A stretch of 42,042 nucleotides of DNA, from assembly GCA_029945855.1 (NCBI GenBank), contig JAQSDJ010000090.1, forward strand, positions 1-42,042. The letters run 5' to 3'. Under the pieces are notes generated by a model, which was given only the letters and a program-made list of their open reading frames with translations, was not told where the DNA came from and made no database searches. The position numbers and the translations under genes were made by a program. The DNA comes from Lacunisphaera sp. (GTDB taxonomy: Bacteria; Verrucomicrobiota; Verrucomicrobiia; Opitutales; Opitutaceae). This document shows, in pieces, positions 12,571 through 28,559 of this stretch. Positions within the stretch are counted from its first letter, which is position 1. Every line of letters starts with the position of its first letter.

Positions 12571-15504
12571 TTACGGTGTCGCGAGAAAGGCGATCTCGGC
12601 GGGCGTGAGTTGGCGGCGGAAAATGCGCAGATCGTCCACGCGGCCAGGCCAATGGAGCGAACCGGAGTTGACGTTGCGACCGATGTTGAGCGGATCGGCG
12701 GAGCTGAGATCCTGCCCGGCCCAATCGGCGATCGACATCGAGCCGGCGATGACGCCGTCGAGGTAGAGCGTGATGGCTCCGGCGCGGTCGATATTGACCG
12801 CAAGATGCACCCATTGCGCGGTGCCGGGATACGTGGCGCTGAATATCTTGCGGGCCGTGCCGTTGCCGACGGCCACCGAGATCAGCCCGTCGGAACCGAA
12901 GACCGCGTAGCCCGGTTTCGAATCGAGTCCGGCGCCCTTGGACAGCAGACGGAGGTTGGTGATGGCATTGGCGTCACGATAGAACCAGAGCGCGAAGGCA
13001 AAGTCGCCGGTATCGATATCGAGCGAGGGACTGTCCGCGACTTCGGCATAGTCGTTCACGCCGTCGAGTGCGAGGGCGTGCGAACCGACGGGGGCGGAAG
13101 CGGTGTAGGCGGCGCCGTTCAACAGGGAGGCGGTCGCGACATTGCCGGAGGCATCGGCGGCCGAGTTGTCGAACTTCCACCAGCCGCGTTCGCCGTCCAG
13201 CGCCTCGGCGTCGAGCGCGGTGAGTGCGAAGGTGACGGCGTCGGCGCGAACCGGTTTGGTGTCGGAGGAGTTGGTGAGAAGACGGACGGCGCTGTTGGTG
13301 GCGACGCGACCGGCGGCGAAGCGGAAGTTGCCAGCGTAAACCCAACCGGCGGCGCCGGTTTGCTGGTCGACGGTGAAGGACTGCGTGCCGGCGGTGTGCA
13401 GAATCGCGTAGGGCGCGGTGGCGCTGGCCCCGGCGTCGGGGTTCATCCGGTGGATGAAGACGTCGTAATTGCCGGTGGCGGGCAGGGTGGGGCGCCATTC
13501 GGCATAGGGCGCGGCCACGGCGTAGGCGTGGTAGCGACCGTCGCCGCGGTGCAGGCCGGCGATGCTGGAGTCGGCCCAGGCAGGGTCGGATTCACCGTAG
13601 TCGATCGTGTGGTCGTCGGCGACCACGGTGATGGGGTCGTGGTAGGCGGCGGGAAACGCACTGGTCAGGCCGATGTTGGCGTAGTCGATGAGCGTCTCGT
13701 TGAAGGAACCGGTCCAGCTGACGTTGTGGGTCGTCTGGGTCGGGTTGTGGTTCGTGCGAAAGGAGCCTGATTGCGTGGCGGCGATCTTGATGTGGCGGAA
13801 GCTCTGCCCATAGGTGCAGCCCGGGTAGTCGAGGAAGATCCCGTTCGGCTTCTGCGGATCGTCCATGGAGGCGTCGGCATAGGCGCCCGAAACCAGCAGC
13901 TGTTCCCACGTGTTGATGTTGGGGCCGCCTGCGACGTTGACGCCTGCCGAGTGAATCAGGCCGGCGTCGCCGCTGTCCTGCAGGCCGTCGGTGGCGCGAA
14001 CATGGTGGACAAGATTTCCGGTGGTGTAATGGAGGCCGTTGTCGATCAACCCGCCCTCGTCGCGCCAGTTGCCGCGGAGACTGACGGCGTAGCGGGCACA
14101 GTTGGAGAACTCGCTATGGGAGATTTCGTTGTTGCTGGCGGAAACCAGGAGCACACCCGCGCATCCGACGGCCGGGGTGAGCACTTCCCCGATATCACTG
14201 AACTGGCAGTTGGTGATGACGTTGAACTCACTGCGCGCATTCGGGTAGGTGGGATCGCTCCGCTGGACACCATTGTAGAGCCAGATGCCGCCGAGTCCCA
14301 TGTGGCGGATGGAGCAGCCGGTAATGGTGTTGTGGTGGCTGTTGTCGCGCAGGTAGACGGCGCCCGAGCCGAGCTGTTCGAAGAGGCAGTCGCGAACCTC
14401 GATGTTGTGGCCGTAACGCACATAAAGAGCCCCGTCGAAATCATTCAGCGTGATCGTCTGGGCGAGATTCGAGAACGCGCAATTGGTATAGGCGAAAGCG
14501 AGCCCCTCAAATCGCAGGTGGTGGATCGGCAGGGCGGGCGTGCCGCCGCTGACGGTCAGCAGGCGCGTGGCGGTCGGGACGCGGATGTCCTGCAGGTTCG
14601 GATCGCCGTCCTGCGGGTAGTAGTAAAGCAAACCGTCGGTGGGATCGTAAAAGAACTCGCCGGGGGCATCGAGCAGCTCCCGGATGCCCTGCACATAGTA
14701 GCGTTCGCCGGTCCCTGGGGTGGGCGGCGGCGTGGCGGCATCGACGGTGAGCACGAAGTTGCGCAGCGTCGTGTTGATGGACTGGATCGGCGAAGGCTTG
14801 TCGGTGCCCCAGTTGGCGGTGCCGCCGTTGCGCCACCACACGACTTGCGCGGCGGAGGTGAGCGGACCCCAGGCAGCCGGATCGAAATCACCGGGGGCGT
14901 ATTGGAGATTGTGCGTCGTGCCGGATTTGTTGCCACCGGTCGAGACCTTGTAGGCACCGCGGTAGAGCGGGTAGCGCGCTTTCGGCTGGTAGTTGGGTGA
15001 CCGTGCGACCCAGCCGCGCTTATCGTTTTCGTAAAGCGTCCCGAGCTTGAGGCCGGCGTTCAGCTGGATCACCCAGAGCGGACTGCCGCCGCCGAGCGGC
15101 GTCCACGGGTTGCCGTCAGTGCCCACATTGAGGTCGGCGGCACCCACGAGGCGCGCGGCACCGGGACCGTCAGCGCTGCGGTAAACGACGTCGAATTCGG
15201 CGCCGGCCGGACCTCCGCCAGAGTCAAAACGATCAAAGACGACAGGAGCGGTCAGGACATACTCGCCGGCGATGAGATTGATGATGATGTCATCCGCCTG
15301 GGCCGGGCTGTTGCGACCGTTGGTGGTGAGGTAGTCGCGGGCGTGGGTGACCGTCTGCCAGGCCGTGGCCGGGGTAAGGCCGTTGTTGGTGTCGCTGCCG
15401 GTCGGCGAAACCCAGTATTGCTCGGGGGTGGCGGAGGCGGTGAGCGCAGTGAGCGCGAGGCAGGCACCGAGAAGGTGCCGCCGGAACGGGAGCGGGTTTT
15501 TCAT
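12571..15504 (-). CDS. Secreted right-handed beta-helix protein with golvesin-like and LamG domains
   Basis: A 977-residue exported protein. The signal peptide is about 1-26 (HLLGACLALTALTASA). A pectate-lyase-like beta-helix (about 28-640) starts YWVSPTGSDTNNGLTPATAW and has a GH-type core with RELLDAPGEFFYD, HHLRFEGLAF and repeated N-x-I/V-T rungs such as NTITGCSIRHMGLGGIW. A golvesin/xanthan-lyase-like beta-sandwich follows (about 640-765: YDVFIHRMNP, DQQTGAAGWVYAGNF). The C-terminal LamG/concanavalin-like domain is about 770-977 (HALALDGVNDYAEV, VDDLRIFRRQLTPAEI). The layout resembles GH141-type glycosidases, but I cannot assign the activity. It is the first gene of an operon with the acetylesterase and a paralogue of the gene at 22977-24815, which lacks the two extra C-terminal domains. 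Confidence 0.85.
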   Translation of the reverse strand: MKNPLPFRRHLLGACLALTALTASATPEQYWVSPTGSDTNNGLTPATAWQTVTHARDYLTTNGRNSPAQADDIIINLIAGEYVLTAPVVFDRFDSGGGPAGAEFDVVYRSADGPGAARLVGAADLNVGTDGNPWTPLGGGSPLWVIQLNAGLKLGTLYENDKRGWVARSPNYQPKARYPLYRGAYKVSTGGNKSGTTHNLQYAPGDFDPAAWGPLTSAAQVVWWRNGGTANWGTDKPSPIQSINTTLRNFVLTVDAATPPPTPGTGERYYVQGIRELLDAPGEFFYDPTDGLLYYYPQDGDPNLQDIRVPTATRLLTVSGGTPALPIHHLRFEGLAFAYTNCAFSNLAQTITLNDFDGALYVRYGHNIEVRDCLFEQLGSGAVYLRDNSHHNTITGCSIRHMGLGGIWLYNGVQRSDPTYPNARSEFNVITNCQFSDIGEVLTPAVGCAGVLLVSASNNEISHSEFSNCARYAVSLRGNWRDEGGLIDNGLHYTTGNLVHHVRATDGLQDSGDAGLIHSAGVNVAGGPNINTWEQLLVSGAYADASMDDPQKPNGIFLDYPGCTYGQSFRHIKIAATQSGSFRTNHNPTQTTHNVSWTGSFNETLIDYANIGLTSAFPAAYHDPITVVADDHTIDYGESDPAWADSSIAGLHRGDGRYHAYAVAAPYAEWRPTLPATGNYDVFIHRMNPDAGASATAPYAILHTAGTQSFTVDQQTGAAGWVYAGNFRFAAGRVATNSAVRLLTNSSDTKPVRADAVTFALTALDAEALDGERGWWKFDNSAADASGNVATASLLNGAAYTASAPVGSHALALDGVNDYAEVADSPSLDIDTGDFAFALWFYRDANAITNLRLLSKGAGLDSKPGYAVFGSDGLISVAVGNGTARKIFSATYPGTAQWVHLAVNIDRAGAITLYLDGVIAGSMSIADWAGQDLSSADPLNIGRNVNSGSLHWPGRVDDLRIFRRQLTPAEIAFLATP

Positions 15505-15552: not shown

Positions 15553-15598
15553 AGAATAGTCCTCTCCCGCGATTGCGCCCAGACGACGATACGGACAA
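15553..15598 (-). promoter_or_regulatory. Regulated promoter of the beta-helix/acetylesterase operon (shared AraC-type operator)
   Basis: Read on the minus strand, TTGTCCGTATCGTC starts at 15598 and a TATTCT -10 element lies at 15558-15553, exactly 40 bases from the first T of the box. The same geometry occurs at three other promoters of the locus (18790, 22149, 25202). The -35 position here (TGGGCG) is poor, which fits activator dependence. The predicted transcript starts about 40 bases before the gene. The rest of the 15505-15710 divergent gap shows no matching site for the GH20 gene on the other strand. Confidence 0.65.
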
Positions 15599-15710
15599 CC
15601 AACCGCAGAATCAGGCCATGCGCGCCGACTGGCGGCGGGCCGGCGCGATAATGCGGCAACGCGTCCCGATTATCCGATGGCGCGGCCGGGGGCGGATGAT
15701 AGGATGAGGC

Positions 15711-17774
15711 ATGCTGACGCAGGGAGACAAAGCGCCCGGTGCAATCGACGTCGTGCCTCTCCCCGTGTCGGTGGAGCAGTTCGCCGGAAGTTGCCCGGTT
15801 TCGGCCGGGCTGGAGTGGCGCGATCAAGGACCGGGTGGGGATCGCGTGCGCGAGGCGAGTGCGAGACTGCTTGCGGGTTGGGAGCGCCGCCTCGGCTGCG
15901 CCTGGACGTTCCGGCCGGGGCGACCACCGAGCCCGGTGCTGGTGGCGTGGGAGAAGGCGGGGGCCGCGATTCCCCTGCTCGGCGAAGATGAATCGTATCG
16001 GCTGGAGATCAGCGCGGCGGGGACGGTGCTGCGGGCGGCGACGGACCTGGGCGCCTTGCGCGGTCTGGCGACGTTGGAACAGTTGCTCGTGGTCGACGGG
16101 GCCGGAGCGTGGCTGCCGGTGGTGAAGATCGCTGACCGGCCGCGCTTTCCCTGGCGCGGGCTGATGGTCGACGTGTGCCGGCACTGGCTGCCACCGGCGG
16201 TGATCCGGCGCACGCTTGATGGCATGGCGCTGGCGAAATTCAACGTGCTGCACCTGCACCTGGCCGACGACCAGGGGTTCCGTTTCGAGAGCCGCACGCA
16301 TCCGCGGCTGCATGAGCGCGGTTCCGACGGGCATTATTTCACGCAGGCGCAGCTCCGTGAAATTGTCGCCGCCGCCGCCGCACGTAGTTTTCGCGTGGTG
16401 CCGGAAATGGACGTGCCGGGACACGCGACGGCCTGGCTGGCCGCCTACCCGGAACTGGCGAGCCAGCCGGGGGCGTATGCGGTCGAGCGCCGCTGGGGCG
16501 TGCATGATGCGGTCCTTGATCCCACGAACGAGAAAGTCTACGGGTTGCTGGCAGATCTTTTCGCCGAGCTGGCGGACGTGTTCCCGGATCCGTTCGTCCA
16601 TATCGGCGGGGACGAGAACAACGGCAAACACTGGGGGGAGAACGCGGACATCCAGAAATTCATGGTCACGTCCGGGCTCGCCGATCACCCGGCCTTGCAG
16701 GCATGGCTCAACCGTCGGGTGCAACGGCTGCTGGTGGGGCACGGCAAGCAGATGGTGGGCTGGGACGAGGTGCTGCACCCCGATCTGCCGCGCGACACGG
16801 TCATCCAATCATGGCGAGGCGCGGATTCCCTGGCGGAGGCGGCGCGGCGCGGGTTCCGGGGGATGTTGTCGAGCGGCTACTACCTCGACCACTGTCACCC
16901 GGCGGCATGGCATTACGGCAAGGATCCGCTGCCGGCCGATGACGTGCTCACGGAAGAAGAGCGGGCGCGCGTGCTCGGCGGTGAAGCGGCGGTCTGGACC
17001 GAATGGATCAGCGAGGAAATGTTTGATGGGCGCACCTGGCCGCGGGCGGCGGCGGTCGCCGAGCGGCTGTGGTCGCCGCGAGCGGTGACCGACACGGCGG
17101 ACCTGGAGCGCCGACTGGCGGTGTTGAGTGAGCGCCTGGCCGAGCATGGTCTGCAACATGAGCAGAACGAGGGCCGGATGATCCGGCGCCTTGCCCAAGG
17201 CGATCCGGCGCGGGCGGCGATACTCGGGATCTTTGCCAGTGCGCTCGCCCCCATCGCGAACTACCGGCGGTCCCGGCTGCAAGTCGGGCACACGCAGGCC
17301 ACCCAGCTGACCGGGTTGGAGGATGCGGTGCGGCCGGACGGCGCTGGCCCGCAACGGTTCGCCCGTGAGGTCGAGGAGTGGTTGCGCGATGGCCAGGCGG
17401 ATGCGGCGCAGGCGCTGGCAGGGCAGTTGCGACTCTGGCGCGGGGCGGCGGCGCAGCTGATCACGACCGAGCACGGGACGCTGGCGGTCGCTCTGGCCGA
17501 TGCCTGCGATGTCGGCCTGGAGGCGTTGTCGTATCCGGACGGGGCGGCGGCCGTGGCGGCGGATTGGGCCGCCGAGGCGATGGACCGGTTGGCCGGGGCG
17601 GCCGCCGTGCGCGCGCCGATGGACATCGCCATCCTCGTCCCGCTGCACCGATTGGTGGCCGCGACGCAAATCGGACGGGGGCCGGAGGAGGGGTTCGCAG
17701 GATGGCGGCGGCGCGTGGAAGATGCGGCAAACCTCACGGATCTCGTGCAGCGCAATCTGCCGCCCCGCGGATAG
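15711..17774 (+). CDS. GH20 beta-N-acetylhexosaminidase, no signal peptide
   Basis: A 687-residue enzyme. The N-terminal GH20b domain spans about 10-140 (VVPLPVSVEQF). The catalytic barrel starts DRPRFPWRGLMVDVCRHW and includes HLHLADDQGFR. The catalytic pair is Asp301-Glu302 in HIGGDENNGKHW: Asp polarises the substrate N-acetyl group and Glu is the acid. The RVVPEMDVPGHA strand and Trp residues near WTEW match the substrate pocket. About 170 C-terminal residues form a helical extension, longer than usual. It releases terminal GlcNAc or GalNAc. A stop codon lies two codons before the ATG in the same frame, so no hidden signal peptide is possible and the enzyme is probably cytoplasmic. A good GGATGAGG ribosome binding site precedes the ATG. 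Its stop lies 2 bases from that of the convergent AraC gene. Confidence 0.93.
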   Translation: MLTQGDKAPGAIDVVPLPVSVEQFAGSCPVSAGLEWRDQGPGGDRVREASARLLAGWERRLGCAWTFRPGRPPSPVLVAWEKAGAAIPLLGEDESYRLEISAAGTVLRAATDLGALRGLATLEQLLVVDGAGAWLPVVKIADRPRFPWRGLMVDVCRHWLPPAVIRRTLDGMALAKFNVLHLHLADDQGFRFESRTHPRLHERGSDGHYFTQAQLREIVAAAAARSFRVVPEMDVPGHATAWLAAYPELASQPGAYAVERRWGVHDAVLDPTNEKVYGLLADLFAELADVFPDPFVHIGGDENNGKHWGENADIQKFMVTSGLADHPALQAWLNRRVQRLLVGHGKQMVGWDEVLHPDLPRDTVIQSWRGADSLAEAARRGFRGMLSSGYYLDHCHPAAWHYGKDPLPADDVLTEEERARVLGGEAAVWTEWISEEMFDGRTWPRAAAVAERLWSPRAVTDTADLERRLAVLSERLAEHGLQHEQNEGRMIRRLAQGDPARAAILGIFASALAPIANYRRSRLQVGHTQATQLTGLEDAVRPDGAGPQRFAREVEEWLRDGQADAAQALAGQLRLWRGAAAQLITTEHGTLAVALADACDVGLEALSYPDGAAAVAADWAAEAMDRLAGAAAVRAPMDIAILVPLHRLVAATQIGRGPEEGFAGWRRRVEDAANLTDLVQRNLPPRG

Positions 17775-17776
17775 AG

Positions 17777-18718
17777 TCAGCGCCGCTTGACCGGGGTTTC
17801 GCGGAGTTTGTCGCGGTATTGCGTCGGCGTGCTCATGAGGTGCTGGCGGAACAGCCGGCAGAAATAACCCACGTCGGTGTAACCGAGGCTGTAGGCGATG
17901 TGTTTCACCGAGTGCTCGGTGGCCGCGAGGAGTCCCTGGGCGGCCTGGAGCTTGCGCTCGAGGATGAACTGCCCGAGCGGCACGCCGTGCTCGCCTTGAA
18001 ACAGCCGGTTGATGTGCCGCACGCTGTAGTGAAAATGGCTGGCGATGTCCTCCAGCTGGATCGGCTGGTGGATGTTCTGCTGGATGAATTCCGCAATGTG
18101 CAGGCTCGAGGTGCGGCTGAATCCATCCGCCTCGGCCGCGGCGGGGTGGGGCGTGGAGGGCAGCGCGCCGGCCACGGTCGCTTCCAGGAAGTGGGCGAAG
18201 TAGAGGTGCAGCCAGGCGTGAAACTTGTCGGCCAGCAATCCGCCGGCGGCGCGCTGGGCGAGTTCGTCGGCCCAAGTGTCGCCCAGGCGCGTGAGCTCGC
18301 GGTTGCGGCGGAAGTGGAACGTGTGGCGGTGCGACAAGTCGTCGAGCGCGCCGACGAGCCGCCGGCCCTCGTCGCCGAGGGGCGTCAGTTTGAGCTGAAA
18401 ACTGCTGATCACGACGGGCGCCTCGACGACATTCCAGCGGTGTTCATAGCCCGGGGCCATGAAGAACAGCTCGCCCGGCCCGAGCGTGTGCGCCTTCGCG
18501 GTGTCGGCATACTCCACGCGTCCCGCCACGAGTTGTGAGAGCTCGAACCAGTCATGCACATGGCTGCCGATGGCGTAGCCGGCGGCGGGGGCGATGCAGT
18601 AATAATAGCGTTGCAGCAGCAGGCGCACGCCCGCGAGCTGCCAGGTGTCCCGGCTCGCGAGCAGGCGGGGCAGCTGCTGGTTGACGCGGGCAAGATTCGC
18701 AAGGTCGGGAGCGGACAT
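17777..18718 (-). CDS. AraC-family transcriptional regulator
   Basis: A 313-residue regulator. The N-terminal cupin sensor (about 35-150) includes GSHVHDWFELSQLVAGRVEY and LGPGELFFMAPGYEHRW. The C-terminal double helix-turn-helix of AraC (about 205-305) contains IQLEDIASHFHYSVRHINRL and the signature IAYSLGYTDVGYFCRLFRQ. Regulators of this type bind a sugar in the cupin and activate catabolic promoters by contacting direct repeats next to the -35 element. It is transcribed divergently from the sialidase-like gene, 128 bases apart, and that gap holds one of the four shared operator sites. It is the only transcription factor in the glycan locus, so it is the best candidate for the regulator of all four promoters (inference). 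Confidence 0.93.
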   Translation of the reverse strand: MSAPDLANLARVNQQLPRLLASRDTWQLAGVRLLLQRYYYCIAPAAGYAIGSHVHDWFELSQLVAGRVEYADTAKAHTLGPGELFFMAPGYEHRWNVVEAPVVISSFQLKLTPLGDEGRRLVGALDDLSHRHTFHFRRNRELTRLGDTWADELAQRAAGGLLADKFHAWLHLYFAHFLEATVAGALPSTPHPAAAEADGFSRTSSLHIAEFIQQNIHQPIQLEDIASHFHYSVRHINRLFQGEHGVPLGQFILERKLQAAQGLLAATEHSVKHIAYSLGYTDVGYFCRLFRQHLMSTPTQYRDKLRETPVKRR

Positions 18719-18768
18719 AACGCGGGGGTTGACCGACCGTGAGGGTTTGCGCCGGCGACGACAAGGCT

Positions 18769-18835
18769 TTGTCCCGCCCGTCTGGCACGATGTCGCGATT
18801 GTCCCATATACGGCGGGCGGGGGTGACGGTATGCT
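18769..18835 (+). promoter_or_regulatory. Regulated promoter of the sialidase-like/MFS operon (shared operator)
   Basis: TGTCCCG (18770), TGTCGCG (18791) and TGTCCCA (18800) are spaced by one or two helical turns. -35 TATACG (18807-18812) and -10 TATGCT (18830-18835) are separated by 17 bases. The -10 element lies at the same distance from the box as in the other three sites. The outermost TGTCCCG is 10 bases further away than at 22140 and 25192, i.e. one extra helical turn. Confidence 0.7.
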
Positions 18836-18846
18836 GGCAAGACCCG

Positions 18847-20718
18847 ATGAATTTTGCTCCTCCTCTCTTTCCTGCTGGGCAACCGGCCGTAAACCCGGCG
18901 GCCGTGGCCCCCACGGCGGCCGCCACCCTAGCGGTGCCGGACGGGCGCCACCTGCGCAATGGCCGGCAGATTCCGTCCGAGCGCTACAGCGATCAGCCGT
19001 ATGTGGTGCGGACGGACGACGGCGCGTGGCTGTGCATCCTGACCACCGGCAGCGGCCATGAAGGGGCGACCGGGCAGCATGTCGTGAGTCACCGCAGTCT
19101 CGACCAAGGCCGGACCTGGACCGAGTCCGCCGAGCTGGAGCCGGCGAGCGGGCCCGAAGCCTCCTATGCCGTGCCGTTGAAAGTGGCGGGCGGCCGGGTC
19201 TATGTGTTCTATAATCACAACACGGACAACCTGCGGGCCGTGCGCGCCGACGATCCCCCTTACCCGGGTGGTTGGTGCGCCCGTGTCGATTCGCTCGGTC
19301 ACTTTGTGTTCAAGTATAGCGATGACCACGGACGCACCTGGTCGGAACGGCGCTTCGTCGTGCCGGTGCGGGAAACCGCGATCGACCGCGCCAATCCCTA
19401 CGGCGGCCGCGTGCGGTTCTTTTGGAATGTTGGCAAGCCGCTGGTCCACGCCGGCGCGGCCTATGTGCCGCTGCACAAGGTCGGCGGTTTCGGCGACGGC
19501 TTCTTCACGCGCAGCGAAGGCTGGCTGTTGCGCAGTGACAATCTGTCCGTGGAGCAAGATCCCGCGAAAATCCGGTGGGAGACCCTGCCCGAGGGCGAGG
19601 TCGGATTGTGCGCGCCGGCCGGGGGCGGGCGGATCGCCGAGGAGCAGAGCATCGTGACGCTCGGCGACGGGACGTTCTATGCGGTCTGGCGGACGGTCGA
19701 CGGCCATCCGGCCACGGCGCGCAGCCGCAACGGTGGGCGCACGTGGACCCCTTCCGCCTACCTGCAGTTTGCCGATGGCCGGCGGATCAAGCATCCGCGC
19801 GCCGCCAACTTCGTCTGGGCGGCCGGGGGTGGACGCTACCTTTACTGGTTCCACAACCACGGCGGACGCGGCTACTCGGACCGGAACCCGGTGTGGATTG
19901 CCGGTGGCATCGAACGGGACACCGCCGAGGGCCGCACGATCGCGTGGAGCGAGCCGGAAATCCTGCTTTACGATGACGACGCCTTCGTGCGCATGAGCTA
20001 TCCGGACCTGATCCAGGAGGACGGCCGGTGGTTCGTGACCGAAACCCAGAAGGAACTCGCGCGGGTGCATGAAGTGGACGGCACGCTGCTGGCCGGCTTG
20101 TGGGCGCAGTTTGGCGAGCCCCTGGTGACGCGCGCCGGTCTCCTCCAGGAGTGGAAAAAATCGTCGGCCACACCGGATGAAGTGGCGGTGGAGCTGCCTG
20201 CGCTGCCGGCGTTCCTGGTTTCCGACGAGGCGGCGGCCGATCTCGGCACCTTGGACAGGCGGGCCGGCCTCAGCCTCGAACTGTGGCTCGAGGTCACAGG
20301 CCCGGTGGAGGGGGGGCGGGTGCTCGCCAGCAACCGCACGGCGGATGGGCGGGGTTTCTCCCTGCGCACGACCAAGACGCAGGGGGTGGAACTGATCGTC
20401 GGCGACGGCCGCGTCGAGAACCGCTGGCGCAGCGATGCCGGGATCCTGGCCGCCGCCGGCCGGCATCATCTCGTCACGACGATCGATGGCGGGCCGAAGA
20501 CGATCACCTTTGTGGCCGACGGCCGCCTGCTCGATGGCGGGGCGGAGCGCCAGTTTGGCTGGGGGCGTTTCAGCCCGCACCTGCGCGAACTCAACGGCCA
20601 GAAGACGCTCACGCTGGCAACCGCCGGGGCGGTGCGCGTGCGGGAGGCGCGGGTCTTCAGCCGGGCGCTGCGCACCTCGGAAGCGGTGTTGAACTATCGG
20701 GCCGGCTCGCTGAACTGA
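18847..20718 (+). CDS. Sialidase-like BNR-repeat protein with C-terminal LamG domain
   Basis: A 623-residue six-bladed propeller. Three Asp-box motifs are present: SLDQGRTW (84-91), SDDHGRTW (158-165) and SRNGGRTW (293-300). AEEQSIVTLGDG (265-276) corresponds to the acidic strand of sialidases. The usual N-terminal RIP motif is not seen (the position reads QPYVV), so true GH33 activity is uncertain. A LamG-like domain fills about 465-620 (LSLELWLEV, VREARVFSRALRTSEAVL). No signal peptide is visible. The ATG at 18847 lies only 11 bases after the -10 element, so the transcript is probably nearly leaderless. A GTG at 18934 is an alternative start. It is followed by the MFS gene after 13 bases, forming an operon. 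It may be an intracellular glycosidase or a lyase of the BNR superfamily. Confidence 0.78.
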   Translation: MNFAPPLFPAGQPAVNPAAVAPTAAATLAVPDGRHLRNGRQIPSERYSDQPYVVRTDDGAWLCILTTGSGHEGATGQHVVSHRSLDQGRTWTESAELEPASGPEASYAVPLKVAGGRVYVFYNHNTDNLRAVRADDPPYPGGWCARVDSLGHFVFKYSDDHGRTWSERRFVVPVRETAIDRANPYGGRVRFFWNVGKPLVHAGAAYVPLHKVGGFGDGFFTRSEGWLLRSDNLSVEQDPAKIRWETLPEGEVGLCAPAGGGRIAEEQSIVTLGDGTFYAVWRTVDGHPATARSRNGGRTWTPSAYLQFADGRRIKHPRAANFVWAAGGGRYLYWFHNHGGRGYSDRNPVWIAGGIERDTAEGRTIAWSEPEILLYDDDAFVRMSYPDLIQEDGRWFVTETQKELARVHEVDGTLLAGLWAQFGEPLVTRAGLLQEWKKSSATPDEVAVELPALPAFLVSDEAAADLGTLDRRAGLSLELWLEVTGPVEGGRVLASNRTADGRGFSLRTTKTQGVELIVGDGRVENRWRSDAGILAAAGRHHLVTTIDGGPKTITFVADGRLLDGGAERQFGWGRFSPHLRELNGQKTLTLATAGAVRVREARVFSRALRTSEAVLNYRAGSLN

Positions 20719-20731
20719 CGTCTCCCGCCCC

Positions 20732-22048
20732 ATGTCGCCGGCCCCTGCCTCGGACCCGCTCGGAAAACCGCCGGTGACGGCGGCTCCGCCGCGCCACAAT
20801 CCCTGGCCGTTCGTGCTCACGCTCTCGTTTGCGAGCGCGTTTCCGAACGCAGCGAGCTCGAGTCTGGCCGCGTTGTTCTACAAGTCGCTGGGCTATTCGA
20901 ACGAGATCGTGGGTTACACCGGCCTGTTGTTCATCCCCTTTGCCGCGTCATTTCTGTGGGCGCCCTGGGTGGACCGGACCGCGAGCAAGCGGGCGTGGTT
21001 GCTGGGGCTCACCTGGGCGCTGGCCGGAGCCTTCGGCGTGCTGGCGGCGACCATCGAGTGCTGGGGGCCGCTGCTGGGCCTGACCCTGGCCGTGATCACC
21101 TTGATCGCGGTGCTGGGGGCGACGGCGGAGCTGAGCATGAACGGCTATTTTCTGCACGCGCTCGACCAGCAGCAGCAGGCGGCCATCTCGGGATTCCGCA
21201 CGGCGGCGATCAGGGTGGGCGGGATATTTGCGGGCGGGCTGTTGTTGAAGGTGTGCGCCGATTACGGCGCGGCCCGCGGGGATGTGGCGGATGGATGGGT
21301 GTTGTTGTTCGGCGTGCTGGCCGTCGCGTTCGCGGTGTCCGGCGCGTATCACAGCTGGGTGCTGCCGCGACCGGTCACGGACCGGCCGGCGCCGGTGACG
21401 ACGGACGGAGGATCGCACCGGCGGGTCTGGGCGGAGTTTCGCCGGGTGCCCGGCGTGGGCCTCGTGGTCGCGTTCTTCCTCATCTATCGTTTTGGCGAGG
21501 GCCTGCTGGTGCGGATGGTGGGACCGTTCCTCCTCGATCCGCCAGCGAAGGGCGGGATGGGCTATACCGTGGCGGACGTGGCGTTCATGCAGGGCACGGT
21601 GGGGGTGGTCTGCTCAATGGCCGGCGGCATCCTCGGCGGCTGGTTGATCAAGTCCCATGGCTTGCGGCGGATGGCGTTTCCCCTCGCGCTCGCCCTGACG
21701 CTGCCGCACGTGCCCTATGTGTGGCTGGCGTGGTATGGCGGATCGACGCTGATGGTGCAGGCCTGCATCGCGATTGAGGCTTTCGGCTACGGCATGGGAT
21801 TTTCGACGATGTTCATGCTGATGGTGGTGCTGGGACGCGGCGAGTATCGCGCCTCGCTCGCGGCCATCTGCACCGGATTGTGGTCGGTCGGGTGGCTGGT
21901 GCCGATCTTCTTCAGCGGGCTCATTCAGGCGCACGTGGGCTATTTCTGGCTCTTCCTGCTGAGTGTCGTGACCGCCCTGCCCGGCCTGGCCTTGGTGCGC
22001 TTCCTGCCCCTGGCCAAGCTTGAAGCGGGCGCCGCCCGGACTGACTAA
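20732..22048 (+). CDS. MFS transporter, AmpG-like
   Basis: A 438-residue inner-membrane protein with about twelve hydrophobic segments. The first half includes LFIPFAASFLWAPWVDR, matching the AmpG/DHA-type loop between helices 2 and 3. A soluble cytoplasmic loop lies at about 215-240. AmpG-family carriers import anhydro-muropeptides or other GlcNAc-containing sugars by proton symport. In glycan loci they often replace an ABC importer. It is translated right after the sialidase-like gene (13 bases), which suggests that it delivers that enzyme's substrate or product. Its substrate cannot be read from sequence. A weak hairpin without a T-run lies 33 bases after the stop. Confidence 0.85.
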   Translation: MSPAPASDPLGKPPVTAAPPRHNPWPFVLTLSFASAFPNAASSSLAALFYKSLGYSNEIVGYTGLLFIPFAASFLWAPWVDRTASKRAWLLGLTWALAGAFGVLAATIECWGPLLGLTLAVITLIAVLGATAELSMNGYFLHALDQQQQAAISGFRTAAIRVGGIFAGGLLLKVCADYGAARGDVADGWVLLFGVLAVAFAVSGAYHSWVLPRPVTDRPAPVTTDGGSHRRVWAEFRRVPGVGLVVAFFLIYRFGEGLLVRMVGPFLLDPPAKGGMGYTVADVAFMQGTVGVVCSMAGGILGGWLIKSHGLRRMAFPLALALTLPHVPYVWLAWYGGSTLMVQACIAIEAFGYGMGFSTMFMLMVVLGRGEYRASLAAICTGLWSVGWLVPIFFSGLIQAHVGYFWLFLLSVVTALPGLALVRFLPLAKLEAGAARTD

Positions 22049-22080
22049 CGTGATGCGACCGGGCCCCAGTCCTGCAATCT

Positions 22081-22098
22081 GCGGCGGCCTGACGCCGC
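22081..22098 (+). terminator. Possible hairpin after the MFS gene
   Basis: GCGGCG/CGCCGC arms around a 6-base loop, with no T-run. It could slow polymerase before the next promoter at 22131 but is weak evidence for a terminator. Confidence 0.25.
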
Positions 22099-22130
22099 CC
22101 GGAGGGGCGGCTGAGCGCACCCCATCCGGT

Positions 22131-22194
22131 GTCTTGAATGTCCCGCCGTTGTCCGAATCGTCCCGTTTACCCCCGGAGGCGCACGGACTATGGT
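22131..22194 (+). promoter_or_regulatory. Regulated promoter of the lyxose isomerase/beta-helix operon (shared operator)
   Basis: Four phased boxes, TGTCTTG, TGTCCCG, TGTCCGA and CGTCCCG, sit about 10-11 bases apart (22130-22165). -35 TTTACC (22166-22171) and -10 TATGGT (22189-22194) are 17 bases apart. The stretch shares ATGTCCCGCC and the following spacing with the site at 25191. Because the promoter lies inside the longest reading frame, it confirms that translation starts at 22246, not at 22138. Confidence 0.75.
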
Positions 22195-22245
22195 CGGGGC
22201 GCGCCACCGCTGCCGTGGTGCGCTGAAAAATCCCCCTTTTCCTTT

Positions 22246-22980
22246 ATGAACGCTCTTTCCGATCCAGGACCGGCGGTGCTGCCGCCGCACCAGGGACCGC
22301 TCACCCGGTCGCTGATCAACCACTGCATCCGCACCGCCATACAGGTGTTCGCCGCCCGGCACCTGCATCTGCCGCCCTTTGCCTTTTGGACCGTCGACGA
22401 CTGGCAGACCAAAGGCCACGAGGCCGATGAAATCCGCGACTGCATGCTGGGCTGGGATGTGACGGATTTTGGCAGCGGCGATTTTCCCCGGATCGGCCGC
22501 ACGCTGTTCACCCTGCGGAACGGGCGCCTGGGCGATGTGAACTATCCCAAGGGTTATGCGGAAAAGTATATCCTCGATCCCGAGGGCCAGCGAGCGCCAG
22601 CGCATTTCCACCGCTCGAAGAGGGAGGACATCATCAATCGGGGCGGCGGGAACATCCTGATCCAACTCACCCGGACGACGCCGGAGAACGGCTGGAGCGA
22701 GGAGCCCTTCACCGTGCAGGTCGACGGCGAGCAGTGGGCGCTGCAGCCCCGCGGCATCGTGCGCCTGCGCCCGGGCCAGAGCCTCACGATCCCGCCGCGC
22801 ACCATCCACCAGTTCTGGGGGGAGGAAGGCTCGGGCTGGACCGTGAGCGGCGAAGTCTCCAGCGTGTGCGACGATCACGCCGACAATTTCTTCTTTGCGG
22901 ACCTGCAGCGTTTTCCGCGACTGATCGAGGACGAACCCCGCCAGTATTACCTCTGCCACGAATATCCCCGCGTCCCATGA
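22246..22980 (+). CDS. D-lyxose isomerase family cupin
   Basis: A 244-residue cupin. The D-lyxose ketol-isomerase signature HFHRSKREDIINRGGG gives metal ligands His120, His122 and Glu127, with a fourth at His188 (PPRTIHQFWG). VSSVCDDHADNFF near the end is also conserved in the family. Characterised members interconvert D-lyxose and D-xylulose and are usually also active on D-mannose. No pentose pathway genes are present here, so the physiological substrate may be a hexose such as mannose. The ATG at 22246 follows the mapped promoter. Its TGA overlaps the ATG of the next gene (ATGA), so the two are translationally coupled. Confidence 0.85.
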   Translation: MNALSDPGPAVLPPHQGPLTRSLINHCIRTAIQVFAARHLHLPPFAFWTVDDWQTKGHEADEIRDCMLGWDVTDFGSGDFPRIGRTLFTLRNGRLGDVNYPKGYAEKYILDPEGQRAPAHFHRSKREDIINRGGGNILIQLTRTTPENGWSEEPFTVQVDGEQWALQPRGIVRLRPGQSLTIPPRTIHQFWGEEGSGWTVSGEVSSVCDDHADNFFFADLQRFPRLIEDEPRQYYLCHEYPRVP

Positions 22981-24815
22981 TCCCCCTTGCCAAACATGCC
23001 CTGCTGGGCGCGGCGCTGGCCGCCGGCGCCCTGGCCGGCGCGCAGGAAATCTGGCTGGCCCCGAACGGGAACGATGCCGCGGGCACGGGCGCACGCAGCG
23101 CCCCGTGGCGCACGGTCGAGCGGGCCCGCGACCACCTCCGGGCAAGCGGACTGGCGGCGCCCCTGGCCGGGGACATCGTCATCAACCTGCTGCCCGGCAC
23201 GTATCCGGTGGCGCAGCCGATCGCCTTTGGCGTGCAGGATTCGGGCCGCAACGGCCACGCCATCGTCTACCGTTCCGCGGACGGGCCGGGGCGGGCGGAA
23301 CTGACCGGCAACGTGCGCATCACCGGTTGGACCCGCGAGAGCGGTAACGTGTGGAAAGCGCCGCTGCCCGGCGGGCGGCTCATCCGCACCCTCTATGAAA
23401 ACGGCCGGCGGGCCTGGCCGGCGCGCACGCCGAATCACGTGCCCAGTGACCGGTATCCCGGCTACAAGGGACCCTATCTGCTCTCGGAGAACGGGGGCGA
23501 GCGTTCCCTCGTCTACCAGGCGGGCGATCTCGACCCCGCGGCGTGGCAGCCGGCGCCGCAGGCCGAACTGCGCTGGTGGGGGCACCAGGGCAAATACAAC
23601 TGGGGCACGTTCGTGTGCCCGATCGAGTCCATCGATCCGGCGACGCGCACGATCGTGTTTCCGAAGCAGGACAGCCGCGCGGCCGCCGGCGAACGATATT
23701 ACGTGGAGGGCTACCGCGAGCTGCTCGACGCGCCCGGTGAGTTTCACGCCGACGCCGCAGCCGGGGTGCTTTATTATTGGCCGCGGGACGGCGACGCCCC
23801 GGGGCAGAGGATAGAGGCGCCCCAGATCGGCGCACTGCTGTGCATCGAGGGCGCGGGCGTGGGCGAGGTCGTGCATGATCTCAAATTCGAGGGCCTCGCG
23901 CTGAGCGGCACCGATTATACCGGACAGAGCGTCAAGCTCGTGGGCGAGCCGCGCGCGGCGGCGTTCCTGCGCCATGCCAGCCGCATCGAGTTCCGTGATT
24001 GTCATTTCTACAACCTGGGCAATCTCGCGATCCGGATGATCGACGACGGGGTGAACAATACCGTCACCGGCTGTTGGATCGAGCGCACGGGTGAGGGCGG
24101 CATCCAGATCTACAACAGCCTCCTGCGGGCGGCCCATCCCGAGGGCCGCAGCAGCGGTCACCGGGTGACCAACAACCGGATCCATGATTTCCATGAAGTG
24201 AGGACCAGCACGCATTGGTGTGCGGTGCAGCTGTTCGCCGTCAGCGAGAGCGAGGTCTCCCATTGCGAAATCTACAACTCCGGCCGCTACGCCATCAGCC
24301 TGCGGGGACATTATTCCACGGAGGAGAAGACGAATCCCGACAACGGCCTGCACTTCGCCCGGGGCAACCGCTTCCATCACCTGCGCGCCTGGCGCTGCGG
24401 GGGTGACAGTGGGGACATGGGGGTGCTGCACGCCGCGCATCTCAACCCGACCGGCCAAGATAACATCAATTATTGGAACCAGATCGTGGTGTCCGACATC
24501 CGGGCCGATCCCTCGATGAACGACCTCGCGCCCGACGGCATTTTCCTCGATCACCCGCAGTCCTGCCAGAACCAGGATCTGCGAAACATCCGGATCGTCG
24601 GGGTGGCGGGGAAACCCTTTCGCACGAACAGAAATCCCGTGCAAACGCTGGTCAACGTGAGTTGGGAGCCGGGTTTTGATGATCGGGCCATGGAGTATGA
24701 ACAGATTGGATTGGCGTCCGATTTCCCGTCGCAATATCGCGGTGAAAAACCGCCCGCCCTGCCGGCCGTCAGCTCAGTGGCCGGGGCCGCGGCCACACCA
24801 CCGGGCGGTCCATAA
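22977..24815 (+). CDS. Secreted right-handed beta-helix protein (paralogue of 12571-15504)
   Basis: A 612-residue exported protein with signal peptide about 1-22 (KHALLGAALAAGALAGA). The pectate-lyase-like beta-helix begins IWLAPNGNDAAGTGARSAPW. It shares with the gene at 12571-15504 the blocks VYRSADGPG, LYEN-R-WxARxPN, YRELLDAPGEF and YY-P-DGD, and the rungs NTVTGCWIERTGEGGIQIYNSLLR. It ends where the paralogue continues into golvesin and LamG domains. It may be a GH141-like glycosidase. It overlaps the lyxose isomerase gene by 4 bases and so is the second gene of that operon. Confidence 0.85.
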   Translation: MIPLAKHALLGAALAAGALAGAQEIWLAPNGNDAAGTGARSAPWRTVERARDHLRASGLAAPLAGDIVINLLPGTYPVAQPIAFGVQDSGRNGHAIVYRSADGPGRAELTGNVRITGWTRESGNVWKAPLPGGRLIRTLYENGRRAWPARTPNHVPSDRYPGYKGPYLLSENGGERSLVYQAGDLDPAAWQPAPQAELRWWGHQGKYNWGTFVCPIESIDPATRTIVFPKQDSRAAAGERYYVEGYRELLDAPGEFHADAAAGVLYYWPRDGDAPGQRIEAPQIGALLCIEGAGVGEVVHDLKFEGLALSGTDYTGQSVKLVGEPRAAAFLRHASRIEFRDCHFYNLGNLAIRMIDDGVNNTVTGCWIERTGEGGIQIYNSLLRAAHPEGRSSGHRVTNNRIHDFHEVRTSTHWCAVQLFAVSESEVSHCEIYNSGRYAISLRGHYSTEEKTNPDNGLHFARGNRFHHLRAWRCGGDSGDMGVLHAAHLNPTGQDNINYWNQIVVSDIRADPSMNDLAPDGIFLDHPQSCQNQDLRNIRIVGVAGKPFRTNRNPVQTLVNVSWEPGFDDRAMEYEQIGLASDFPSQYRGEKPPALPAVSSVAGAAATPPGGP

Positions 24816-25180
24816 AGCTCCGGCGCTCCAGACGCAGCGAGCGGGAAAGATCCAGGATGGGCGGGAGCCCGGATAAACCGGTGCTGGCCGAAAAGTGTCA
24901 CCGCGCATCCGCTTTGTCTTGTGGCGTGCGAGTTACGGAAGTGGCGGCGTTCAAGCCCGTCGCGCCGCGCGCACCGGTGGGTCCCGGCGTTGACCGGCAG
25001 CGATCAGTCCCGCCCGGCAGGGCTTATCCGCCGCCCTGTCCACGGCGCCACACAGCGAGGAAATGGCACGCGCCTTGAATTTCTTATGTTGTCGGGCGAC
25101 CGGCGGGACATCGCGTCCCCATTTGCGCCGGCGGAGAGACGGCGAAGGTTTGGGCGCCGGACCGTCGCCAATCCCCTGTC
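24816..25180. other. Intergenic region upstream of the TonB receptor promoter
   Basis: No gene seen in 365 bases. A GGGCGGGAGCCCG inverted segment lies near 24857-24870 and a GGCAGGGCTTATCCGCCGCCC stretch near 25015-25035. A long reading frame runs through from 24921 into the receptor, but it crosses the promoter at 25182-25247 and is not a real N-terminus. Confidence 0.6.
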
Positions 25181-25181
25181 C

Positions 25182-25247
25182 TTGTCCGGAATGTCCCGCC
25201 CTTGGCCGAACAGTCCCATTTACGGTGGTGGGCGCCTGCTATATTCT
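25182..25247 (+). promoter_or_regulatory. Regulated promoter of the TonB receptor operon (shared operator)
   Basis: Phased boxes TGTCCGG, TGTCCCG, TGGCCGA and AGTCCCA lie 10-11 bases apart (25183-25217). -35 TTTACG (25219-25224) and -10 TATTCT (25242-25247) are separated by 17 bases. It is the best-looking member of the four-site set. The predicted leader is about 45 bases and the receptor ATG is at 25299. Confidence 0.75.
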
Positions 25248-25298: not shown

Positions 25299-28200
25299 AT
25301 GAACTTGATTGAACACCCCGGATTGCCCCCCCTGAAAAAACAATCCACCGCCGCCGCCGCGCTTGGTCGTGGCTGGAGTATCGTTCGGGCCACCGGTCTT
25401 GGTGTCGTGCTTGCGACGGCAGTCTTTTCCACCCGGGCCGCAGAAGTCGCCGCGGAGACAAAGGCAACCCCGGCGAAAGACGAGGTGCTCAAACTTTCGC
25501 CCTTTGTGGTGAATGCATCGCGCGACGTCGGTTTTGTCGCGGCCAGCTCGCTCGCCGGTGGGCGGCTCGCAGGGGACCTGAAGGACACCCCGGTGGCCTA
25601 TTCGGTCATGACGCGCGAGTTGATCGACGCCCTCGGCCTGATCGACCTGACCGAGATGACCAAGTGGGCGACGAACGCGGGCACCCGCGCCGAGGACGGC
25701 GGCGAATATGTGGTCGGCAACTCGATCGCCCTCTCGTCCCGCGGCGTCGCCAGCAACGCGCCGCAGCGCGATTTCTTCCCGGTGTTCTACAACTTCGATT
25801 CCTACAACATCGAGCGCCTCGACCTGGCCCGCGGCCCCAATGCCGTGCTCTTCGGCACCAGTGGCGTGGGCGGCACGGCCAACAGCGTCACGAAGCAGGC
25901 CCGCACGGGCAAGCAGTCCACGGAATTCCGCACCAACTACGGCTCCTGGGCGAATCTCCGCACCACGCTCGACCACAACCAGCCGCTCTCCGAGACGCTG
26001 GCCTTCCGGGTCAATCTGCTTTATCAGGACCGGGCGGGCTGGCGCAACGGCGATGCCGAGACGCGTCAGGGCCTGACCGTGAGCGGCACCTGGAAGCCTT
26101 TTCGCAACACCGAGATTCGCGCCGGGGCGGAATGGGGCACGCTGGCCCGCACGGTCATCACCACGACTTTTCAGGACAACGTGAGCGCCTGGGACGGGGT
26201 GTCGGTCTATAACTCCCGGCTCACAACGTTCCAGACCGCCAAGGGCATTTCCTATGAAGTGACCCGCACGGCGGTATTCACCCCGTCCAACGGAGGCGGG
26301 CTGTTGAATTACGAGGGCTGGTCGAAGACCCTCGGTGGTAACTCGGCCGCGACGGTGCCGGCCGGTGGCGTGATCGTCGTGGGCAATTCCGCCAATATCT
26401 ACAACGCGCCGATCCTCGACCAGATCAACCTGCCCGATTCGCTGTATGATATTGCCGAGGCCAATTCCAAGTTCCGCGTGCCTTCGCGCACGACGTCGAC
26501 CTTCCCGGACGAGAAACTTTTCCAGGTCGACAACCGTGAGATCAACCTGGCGATCACGCAGCGCCTCGGCGACCGTTTCTACGCGGAACTCGCGGGCAAC
26601 CTCGGTAAGGAGGACACCGATTCCGACGTCGGCATCGTGCGCACGATGCAGCGCCTTTATCTCGACCCGAACACTGTCCTGCCCGACGGCAAGCCGAACC
26701 CCAACTTCCTGGAACCGTATGTGCAGGCGTTTTCCTACCCCTACATGCAATACCGGGAGAAGAAAAACCTGCGTCTTTCGCTCGGCTATGTCGGGACGAG
26801 AACCCGTTTCGGTGAGTTTTCCTTCAACACCATCGCCGGTTACTCGACGCAATCATACGACCGCAATAATTTCCGCTATATCCTGAAGCCGGAAGGCACG
26901 GACCCCCGCACCTGGCCCAGCGCGACCGACCTGCCCGTGTGGTATCGTTATTACCTCAACACGGACACGTCCCGCCCCATGCCGCAGCCCGACAGCTGGA
27001 CCTACGTCAATCCGATCACCGGTCAGACCAGCACGATGGCGGCCGGCCTGGTCCGTGATTACCAGAACTCGAACTTCAACCAGCTCCTGAGCATCGACTA
27101 CAAATACGCGCAGGCCGCCGGCAACGCGAAGTTCTTCAAGAATCGCCTGATCGTCCTCGGCGCGGTCCGCCGCGACCAATATCAGACCCATCAGCAGTCG
27201 GAGGTCGCACAATACGACAACCCGGCAGATTGGGACGGCTACACGCTGTATATCAAACCGGAGGCCCCATCCGACTGGAACAGCCTGACCTACCGCCTGC
27301 GCGATACAAACGGCCAGCCCTATGGCGCGGCCTTGCCGGCGGACACCCGCCCGCGGGTCAGCAACCTCCGTGATCCGCGCTATGCGAGCGACCGTTTCCG
27401 GAGCGATTATTCCCCGCCGGACAGCAAGCAAACCGTCGACACGAAGTCCGTCGGCTCCGTCTTCCATGTCACGCACAACCTGAGCGTCTTCGCCAACTAC
27501 GCGGAATCGTTCCAGCCCCCGACGAGCGCGCTGAAGCTGAACGGCAGCATCTTCCAGCCCGAGGCTTCCAAGGGGAAGGACTTTGGCGTGCGCGTCACCC
27601 TGTTGGACGGGGCCATTGTGGCGAACCTGATCCGCTATGACGGCTATCAGAACAACGCGCCGCTCAATGCCGGAACCTACTACAATTACTTCACGGCGAT
27701 GATCAAGGCCCGTAAACGCGAGGACCCGGTCCTCGTCGGCGGGATCAATTCGCGGGGCCTGCTCCCGGTGCCGATCTACACCGACACGGCCGAGCTGAAG
27801 ACCGAAGGCTGGGAGCTGGAGATCACCGCCAACATCACGAAAAACTGGCGCCTGATGTTCAATGCGGCCACGCCCAAGGCCACGCAGAACGAACCGTATG
27901 CCGAGACCCGCGCCTACTGGGCGGAGAACAAGGAAACCTACCGCCAGGTGGTCAAGGACGCCGGCGGCGTGTTCAACGGCGATGTGGCCACCTATGACAA
28001 TGCCACCACGGTGCCGGCGGGTTGGTCCCCGGGGAATGACGGCACCGCTTCCGTCAATGCCTGGAACAATCTCAACAACGCCCTCGCCGGCCTGGCGAAC
28101 AACCAGAAGCTCAATCGGCTCATCGAGGTGAACGCGAACCTCTACACCGACTACGCGTTTCGCACCGGCAAGCTGAAGGGTTTCCGCATCGGCGGCGGCG

Positions 28201-28559
28201 TTAACTACCGCGGCCGGGAAGTGATCGGCACCCGCGGGGCCGACACGATGCGCAATCCGGCCAACCCAAACACGGCGATCGATAATCCCGCGGTGGGCCC
28301 GATGGACTACGTCTACAACGATCCCTACACCATGGGCACACTGACGTTCAACTACACGCGGGTGCTCAAGAAAAAATACACCCTCAGCATCGATCTGCGG
28401 ATCAACAACCTGATGGATCACGATGAGCCGTTTTATTTTAACACCATCCTGCGTCCGGAGGGCGGGGACCTGACCAATCCGGCCCGGGTGGCGACACCTT
28501 ATGCCTACGGCTGGCACACGCCGCGCAACTACATCCTCTCCACCACCCTGAGGTTTTGA
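25299..28559 (+). CDS. TonB-dependent outer-membrane receptor
   Basis: A 1086-residue receptor. The signal segment is about 25-50 (VRATGLGVVLATAVFSTRAA). It is followed by LKLSPFVVNASRDVGFVAAS and the typical verrucomicrobial start of the plug, SLAGGRLAGDLKDTPV. The plug (about 80-215) includes NIERLDLARGPNAVLFGTSG. The 22-stranded barrel closes with NYILSTTLRF, ending in the outer-membrane Phe. It imports glycan fragments in a TonB/ExbBD-energised way. No SusD-like lipoprotein is encoded beside it. It is the first gene of the operon TonB receptor, GDSL esterase, NagB-LmbE, ROK kinase, PIG-L deacetylase. Confidence 0.93.
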   Translation: MNLIEHPGLPPLKKQSTAAAALGRGWSIVRATGLGVVLATAVFSTRAAEVAAETKATPAKDEVLKLSPFVVNASRDVGFVAASSLAGGRLAGDLKDTPVAYSVMTRELIDALGLIDLTEMTKWATNAGTRAEDGGEYVVGNSIALSSRGVASNAPQRDFFPVFYNFDSYNIERLDLARGPNAVLFGTSGVGGTANSVTKQARTGKQSTEFRTNYGSWANLRTTLDHNQPLSETLAFRVNLLYQDRAGWRNGDAETRQGLTVSGTWKPFRNTEIRAGAEWGTLARTVITTTFQDNVSAWDGVSVYNSRLTTFQTAKGISYEVTRTAVFTPSNGGGLLNYEGWSKTLGGNSAATVPAGGVIVVGNSANIYNAPILDQINLPDSLYDIAEANSKFRVPSRTTSTFPDEKLFQVDNREINLAITQRLGDRFYAELAGNLGKEDTDSDVGIVRTMQRLYLDPNTVLPDGKPNPNFLEPYVQAFSYPYMQYREKKNLRLSLGYVGTRTRFGEFSFNTIAGYSTQSYDRNNFRYILKPEGTDPRTWPSATDLPVWYRYYLNTDTSRPMPQPDSWTYVNPITGQTSTMAAGLVRDYQNSNFNQLLSIDYKYAQAAGNAKFFKNRLIVLGAVRRDQYQTHQQSEVAQYDNPADWDGYTLYIKPEAPSDWNSLTYRLRDTNGQPYGAALPADTRPRVSNLRDPRYASDRFRSDYSPPDSKQTVDTKSVGSVFHVTHNLSVFANYAESFQPPTSALKLNGSIFQPEASKGKDFGVRVTLLDGAIVANLIRYDGYQNNAPLNAGTYYNYFTAMIKARKREDPVLVGGINSRGLLPVPIYTDTAELKTEGWELEITANITKNWRLMFNAATPKATQNEPYAETRAYWAENKETYRQVVKDAGGVFNGDVATYDNATTVPAGWSPGNDGTASVNAWNNLNNALAGLANNQKLNRLIEVNANLYTDYAFRTGKLKGFRIGGGVNYRGREVIGTRGADTMRNPANPNTAIDNPAVGPMDYVYNDPYTMGTLTFNYTRVLKKKYTLSIDLRINNLMDHDEPFYFNTILRPEGGDLTNPARVATPYAYGWHTPRNYILSTTLRF

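Follow-up and report, generated by a model that had tools for sequence, protein, structure and literature searches.

The regulatory question

How could the genes of one glycan locus, divided among several transcription units, be switched on together? The locus in question belongs to Lacunisphaera sp. (Opitutaceae, Verrucomicrobiota) and spans about 10.5 to 34.3 kb of contig JAQSDJ010000090.1, whose entire 42,042 bases are referred to here as the window (contig C90 of a draft genome of 5.0 Mb in 330 contigs). Four of its promoter regions carry a GTCC-type box at one fixed distance from the -10 element, and an AraC-family protein encoded at 17777-18718 is the sole DNA-binding regulator found among the 13 locus genes scanned, which bears out what an earlier reading of this DNA, made without database searches (the sequence-only reading), had claimed. 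The shared element is very probably the operator of this protein, which would control the locus directly and probably by class II activation. The argument draws on the arrangement of the sites, their rarity in the genome and the recurrence of the motif beside a related regulator in another genus.

A shared promoter geometry

The four sites are named A (22149, plus strand), B (25202, plus), C (18790, plus) and D (15598, minus), with positions counted from the first base of the box, which reads TTGTCCGAAT at A, TTGGCCGAAC at B, ATGTCGCGAT at C and TTGTCCGTAT at D. In every case a TATNNT hexamer occupies positions 41-46 (TATGGT, TATTCT, TATGCT and TATTCT for A to D), so that all four boxes and -10 elements of the sequence-only reading were found where it had placed them. 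The same holds for the -35 elements with a 17-bp spacer that it had seen at three of the four, which lie at positions 18-23 (TTTACC, TTTACG and TATACG for A, B and C). In this regard, TATNNT occupies 8 of 1,988 positions (0.4%) in the four intergenic regions, both strands included, and 322 of 562,514 control positions (0.06%), a rarity that would place the constant -10 offset far beyond chance even when the choice of the offset is allowed for.

The boxes are halves of a longer element. The operator unit is a bipartite 17-mer, approximately TTGTCCGAAnnGTCCC(A/G), with two GTC-type halves 9 bp apart, and its proximal copy ends at the -35. The start-to-start steps of the GTCC-like boxes are 9, 11 and 9 at sites A and B, and 9, 12 and 9 at site C, which replaces the earlier description of GTCC boxes recurring every 10-11 bp by that of a bipartite unit repeated after 20 or 21 bp. 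Likewise, the outer box at 18770, previously thought to lie one further helical turn away, is actually the first half of the distal unit of site C, placed 1 bp further out than in the other sites. This direct repeat of bipartite half-sites 20-21 bp apart is strong at A and B and partial at C and D. At A, B and C the proximal unit ends at position 17, immediately before the -35 at 18-23 and with the -10 fixed downstream; D has the -10 only. Judged from the sequence, tandem units of which the proximal one ends at the -35 are the form of an AraC-type two-monomer class II operator.

A recent promoter duplication would be no simple answer to the likeness between A and B, since their flanks have diverged more than their operators: identity amounts to 16/20 and 18/23 in the operators, and to 10/30 upstream, 7/17 in the spacer and 8/14 past the -10.

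The candidate regulator

The 313-residue protein has the domain composition of an AraC/XylS regulator. Its C-terminal part matches PF12833 of Pfam (residues 225-303, 3.3e-21), in agreement with the domain of about 100 residues and two helix-turn-helix (HTH) motifs typical of this family, and its relatives in the PDB, namely RamA, SoxS, MarA and AraC, all align within residues 207-306. The N-terminal part matches PF02311 (residues 43-99, 1.9e-07, 31.3 bits against a cut-off of 21.1), the AraC-type ligand-binding and dimerisation domain. As a whole the protein stays below the whole-protein cut-offs of the named NCBIfam members of the family (AraC, RhaS, MelR and others; best 70 bits against 200, for the 25 of 32 families shown), and the AraC model itself gives 60.1 against a cut-off of 208.

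Specificity within the genome

The rarity of the sites was assessed with matrix scores against control positions from 281 kb of the same genome, A, B and C each being scored with a matrix of the other sites and the site at 15598 never being included in a matrix. Of 562,074 control positions, one reaches the score of A, 2 that of B, 6 that of C and 50 that of D (9.8 bits). The proposal of a single shared operator thus stands in so far as all four sites have the box and the -10, and must be qualified in that the sites are unequal and D is weak.

A motif lying at random places over the genome, which the sequence-only reading had named as an argument against a regulon, was not what an 18-base pattern revealed: TTGNCCGAANNGTCCCNTTTAC, with up to three mismatches, matched sites A and B only (reversed control 0). 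The shorter TGTCCNNANNGTCCCAT, with up to one mismatch, occurs at 7 places in the genome (reversed control 0), three of them being C, A and B, each one base off. The other four have no TATNNT at 41-46 and lie within stop-free frames of 424-687 residues, a soft criterion in G+C-rich DNA, as site A itself is covered by a stop-free frame of 377 residues. The bare 10-base box TTGTCCGAAT is not specific by itself, being found at 5 genomic places, one of them in the locus (reversed control 0), and the four outside the locus have neither GTCCC at 12-16 nor TATNNT at 41-46. Altogether, no equally good sites were found elsewhere in the genome, and no convincing further regulon member was detected outside the locus.

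Site D was not matched by the 18-base pattern, by TGTCCNNANNGTCCCAT or by a longer pattern that includes the -10. A pattern derived from A and D, with TATNNT at 41-46, matches only these two sites genome-wide below three mismatches (it was made after seeing both); at three mismatches it gives 10 further places, one of which is site B, and 5 reversed-control matches. Mainly from its likeness to A together with its -10, the membership of D in the regulon is judged probable and moderately supported.

Two further near-matches deserve mention. An isolated one, GTCCCAATCGTCCCGT at C102:36518 (minus strand), has TATGCC at 41-46 and precedes a sensor-kinase-like gene, whose likely start codon follows after about 50 bp; inspection by eye showed no tandem copy. 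The other, CTGGCCGAAAAGTGTCA at 24884 of the window, is a weak unit (13.1 bits) that shares the intergenic region of B and precedes this site by 318 bp. Its possible role in looping was set aside, because chance alone would give the window about 1.3 scores of this level.

The motif beside a related regulator in another genus

Relatives of the regulator (E 1e-35 or better, with the best 9 candidates per genome scored) were found in only 2 of 252 genomes of the family, the window's own included. The second genome, G115, encodes a protein 45% identical, in a locus where araC diverges from a BNR-repeat gene that is followed by a GDSL-type esterase gene and a TonB receptor gene and, beyond these, by a second BNR gene and the genes of an RraA-like and an enolase-superfamily protein. 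The two regulators share 18 identical residues in HTH1 (PIQLEDIASHFHYSVRHI) and have DVGYFCRLFR in common in HTH2.

The motif in G115 was first spotted by eye, and 40 kb of this genome were then scanned with a matrix built only from A, B and C. The highest score, 15.8, belongs to the region upstream of the second BNR gene; the araC/BNR intergenic region follows with 15.2, and the region upstream of the TonB receptor gene, which has TATGAT at 41-46, comes third with 13.3. None of 561,874 control positions reaches 13.3, and a score such as that of the fourth match (11.4) would be expected to arise once by chance. Such a scan of related genomes had been suggested together with the AraC-regulon reading, which gains support from it: the matrix recovers the motif at three promoter regions beside the related regulator, among them, as in the window, the region between araC and BNR and that before the TonB receptor gene. 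The site between araC and BNR is common to the two loci. In the reverse scan, with a matrix from G115 applied to the window, C came second, A fourth and B fifth, and the distal unit of B took rank 6.

The motif does not behave as a genus- or family-wide promoter element, having matches in 13 of 150 genomes at up to two mismatches (the window's own plus 12 single ones) against 21 in the reversed control. Among the 252 family genomes, exact TGTCCNNANNGTCCCAT occurs twice only in G115, both times at the regulator locus, and this is where the signal lies. Long stop-free frames run over the five other exact matches, none of which has TATNNT at 41-46. The other 250 family genomes searched with the exact pattern, and the 149 searched with the 18-base pattern, have at most one match each, and within the limits of these patterns the clustered motif appears only where the regulator occurs.

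More distant relatives of the regulator are few. Among 372 genomes of the order (1e-40), G169 alone was found besides the window's own genome, and among 387 of the phylum (1e-45) G169 and G743; both sets are samples, with the best 5-15 candidates per genome scored. A contig profile search with the single regulator protein gave no match, and one with the two-protein alignment recovered a record of Opitutaceae bacterium ACE_VER3, which matches the G115 locus, and Neobacillus, the latter in residues 210-302 only. In G169, from another family of the order, the regulator is 32% identical and adjoins a BNR protein 48% identical to that of the window; HTH1 is much alike in the three regulators, and HTH2 differs in G169. 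The best match there, TTGTCCGGAAAGTGACA at L051:14742-14758 (minus strand; 15.1 bits, a score that 3 of 562,074 control positions reach), is conserved in its first half (GTCCG) and differs in the second. The altered HTH2 would suit this changed second half, and one site proves nothing. Next in rank is a match at 2384 (13.9 bits), 76 bp ahead of an open frame and with no TATNNT at 41-46; it does not exceed chance, since 9 of 562,074 control positions reach 13.1 and about one such match is expected there.

A model for activation

Each 17-bp unit would take one monomer, whose two HTH motifs would read successive major grooves, and the second unit would take the partner monomer; it is from this partner unit 20-21 bp upstream that a dimer bound on one face of the DNA is proposed. 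The bound dimer would most likely recruit RNA polymerase by touching the sigma subunit, as in class II activation, because a poor -35 follows immediately after the proximal unit, with the -10 at a fixed distance. The trigger may be a sugar that is released from the target glycan and sensed by the N-terminal domain. In response, the promoters at 18790, 22149 and 25202 would be switched on together, and that at 15598 probably too, so that control, as suggested by gene spacing, would extend to the BNR-MFS pair, the lyxose isomerase-beta-helix pair, the genes from the TonB receptor to the PIG-L deacetylase and, probably, the beta-helix/esterase pair. Lying in the divergent region between araC and BNR, site C may also adjust araC itself.

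Weighing the alternatives

Several observations weigh against the AraC operator as just described. Site D has TGGGCG in place of a -35 and is weak as a whole, the distal unit of C is half lost, and no site of clear own orientation was seen for the GH20 gene (15711), a point to be counted here, or for araC itself. Once the -10 is included in a longer pattern, the genome yields 5 matches at up to two mismatches (A, B, C and two others) against 8 in the reversed control. In G115, two of the three sites are without TATNNT at 41-46, and a fair distal copy exists only at the araC/BNR site (6.2 bits; 0.0 and negative at the others). A matrix from A and B only puts two of these sites at ranks 2 and 3 and leaves the TonB site outside the top 8, and the reverse scan is headed by a coding-region match at 14133, has the weak unit at 24884 in third place, and gives A and B scores that 6 of 561,874 control positions also reach. 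Moreover, no clear promoter-type site was seen in the 30 kb scanned in G169, where the best match is so close to the araC start (26-42 bp upstream of it) that a -10 at 41-46 would land on the start codon, and the scan of G743 gave no convincing site.

The same protein could instead be a repressor or a loop-forming dual regulator that leaves or rearranges on ligand, its bound dimer excluding polymerase. An operator abutting the -35 fits such hindrance, and autoregulation is plausible because site C lies between araC and BNR. Against this, the proximal unit stops before the core promoter and does not cover it, the -35 hexamers (TTTACC, TTTACG and TATACG, with none at D) are as poor as expected for activator-dependent promoters, and most AraC-family sugar regulators activate, all of which makes repression unlikely. 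A different proposal is that the motif serves a regulator whose gene lies elsewhere, with the AraC protein a neighbour by coincidence only. AraC-like genes are indeed numerous, with 17 first-look candidates in the window's own genome and up to 105 in a relative, of which the best 15, 9, 6 or 5 per genome were scored. We regard this as quite improbable, given that clusters of motif sites were seen only in the two family genomes having the regulator, that the araC/BNR site is kept in both, and that the two-site direct-repeat form is typical of AraC-type domains.

The last alternative is that composition has by chance placed GTCC words of a 67% G+C stretch before a TATNNT. Single weak matches do occur everywhere, as the 12 obtained at up to two mismatches in the 149 other family genomes against 21 in the reversed control indicate, and the exact TGTCCNNANNGTCCCAT total in the 252 genomes (7 matches in 6 genomes, against 6 in the reversed control) does not stand clear of its control and so counts against an operator. 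Chance would leave unexplained that the matches cluster at the locus and at promoters, and that they recur beside the related regulator in a second genus with scores unseen in the 281 kb of control. This account of the whole set is hardly tenable; in our judgement it is refuted for A, B and C, and for D it may hold. Binding of these operators by the local AraC-family protein remains the best-supported reading.

Relation to known systems

Direct repeats of this kind have precedents. Hybrid two-component systems (HTCS) of Bacteroides with an AraC-type DNA-binding domain have predicted direct-repeat operators at polysaccharide loci, on average 21 bp apart, and their monomers are proposed to occupy one side of the DNA (PMC3878776). 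The window resembles these systems in having a two-site direct repeat upstream of genes for glycan degradation and outer-membrane uptake, near the regulator. It differs in phylum and in its regulator, an AraC protein of the one-component type that carries a cupin domain and is no membrane sensor; the likeness noted here is one of arrangement. MtlR of Pseudomonas fluorescens, a sugar-alcohol responsive activator of the AraC/XylS type studied at one promoter by mutation, electrophoretic mobility shift assay and footprint, binds two similar 15-bp blocks with direct repeats, in a region that is at least 37 bp long and lies upstream of the -35 (PMC4514859). Here too the likeness noted, two similar blocks upstream of the -35, is one of arrangement.

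In E. coli, araI1 and araI2 are adjacent direct-repeat half-sites with a spacing of about 21 bp, of which the proximal extends to the -35, and their sequence is different from that of the window operator. The use of I1 and I2 and the release of the loop are treated in PMC4486848. Common to both are a dimer (proposed here), adjacent direct repeats and a sugar operon, with no distant looping site established in the window.

The literature search, made mostly by title, found no paper describing this operator or an operator of a Verrucomicrobial glycan locus, and among the matches listed for the motif strings the papers were unrelated by title. The sequence-only reading knew of no described operator of this form, a statement that can be upheld at most for the sequence, since tandem repeats about 21 bp apart are already described for the Bacteroides domains (PMC3878776) and MtlR has its two 15-bp blocks upstream of the -35 (PMC4514859). 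The architecture is known; the sequence and the regulon appear to be new.

The locus and its genes

The locus begins with a sialate O-acetylesterase-family protein, a beta-helix protein, a GH20 enzyme, the AraC regulator and a BNR-repeat (sialidase-like) protein. It continues with an AmpG-like major facilitator superfamily (MFS) transporter (an assignment that scores below the model cut-off), a D-lyxose isomerase-family protein, a second beta-helix protein and a TonB-dependent receptor, and ends with a GDSL esterase, a glucosamine-6-phosphate deaminase/PIG-L fusion, a protein without family match and a PIG-L deacetylase. The sialate O-acetylesterase-family gene overlaps the beta-helix gene as listed, and its real start is probably further in. 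A sensor histidine kinase is encoded at 7711-9498, outside the locus.

The BNR-repeat protein has no strong solved relative, the best being an anhydrosialidase (E 0.004), and its 48%-identical homologue that adjoins the AraC gene in G169 is almost full-length; it is possibly a glycosidase of unrecognised specificity. The stretch 30055-34264 forms an amino-sugar catabolic set made up of the deaminase/PIG-L deacetylase fusion, a 473-residue protein at 31978-33399 for which the scan gave no family match, and the second PIG-L protein.

Table 1. Coordinates of the proposed operators, promoters, regulator and target genes in the window
Feature	Positions	Strand	Remarks
AraC-family regulator, 313 aa	17777-18718	-	N-terminal AraC_binding/cupin domain, C-terminal double HTH; proposed operator-binding protein
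Site C, distal unit TTGTCCCGCCCGTCTGG	18769-18785	+	21 bp upstream; first half good, second poor (GTCTG); 2.1 bits, reached by 0.2% of control positions
Site C, proximal unit ATGTCGCGATTGTCCCA	18790-18806	+	araC/BNR intergenic region
Promoter of BNR-MFS (site C)	18807-18835	+	-35 TATACG 18807-18812; 17-bp spacer; -10 TATGCT 18830-18835
Site A, distal unit GTGTCTTGAATGTCCCG	22129-22145	+	20 bp upstream; 12.6 bits; 2.3e-5 of control positions
Site A, proximal unit TTGTCCGAATCGTCCCG	22149-22165	+	
Promoter A	22166-22194	+	-35 TTTACC 22166-22171; 17-bp spacer; -10 TATGGT 22189-22194
Site B, distal unit TTGTCCGGAATGTCCCG	25182-25198	+	20 bp upstream; 21.2 bits; reached by 0 control positions
Site B, proximal unit TTGGCCGAACAGTCCCA	25202-25218	+	
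Promoter B	25219-25247	+	-35 TTTACG 25219-25224; 17-bp spacer; -10 TATTCT 25242-25247
Site D, proximal unit TTGTCCGTATCGTCGTC	15582-15598	-	second half weak
Site D, possible distal unit ATGGCCTGATTCTGCGG	15603-15619	-	21 bp upstream; weak, 5.7 bits; 5e-4 of control positions
-10 element TATTCT of promoter D	15553-15558	-	
BNR-repeat (sialidase-like) gene and AmpG-like MFS transporter gene	18847-20718; 20732-22048	+	13 bp gap; presumed operon of site C
D-lyxose isomerase-family gene and beta-helix protein gene	22246-22980; 22977-24815	+	overlapping; presumed operon of site A
TonB-dependent receptor (25299-28559), GDSL esterase, NagB/PIG-L fusion, 473-aa protein, PIG-L deacetylase	25299-34264	+	tight spacing; presumed operon of site B
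Beta-helix/Golvesin_C/LamG protein gene and sialate O-acetylesterase-family gene	12571-15504; 10568-12814	-	presumed targets of site D

What the proposed operator means for the family

The AraC protein and its operator could be a portable module, an idea put forward tentatively and with more doubt than confidence. A protein found in 2 of 252 family genomes would have had its operator retained or newly placed at several promoters in two glycan loci that differ in gene composition and belong to different genera, the conserved HTH1 reading the promoter-distal GTCC half and HTH2, altered in G169 where the nearest match keeps the first half only, reading the proximal GTCCC half. For the organism, the analysis gives a concrete operator, a likely regulator, a cross-genus check and a predicted regulon over most of a 24-kb catabolic locus. 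For the wider family of regulators, a pair with matching HTH residues and matching sites offers a basis for reading how AraC-type domains choose their DNA.

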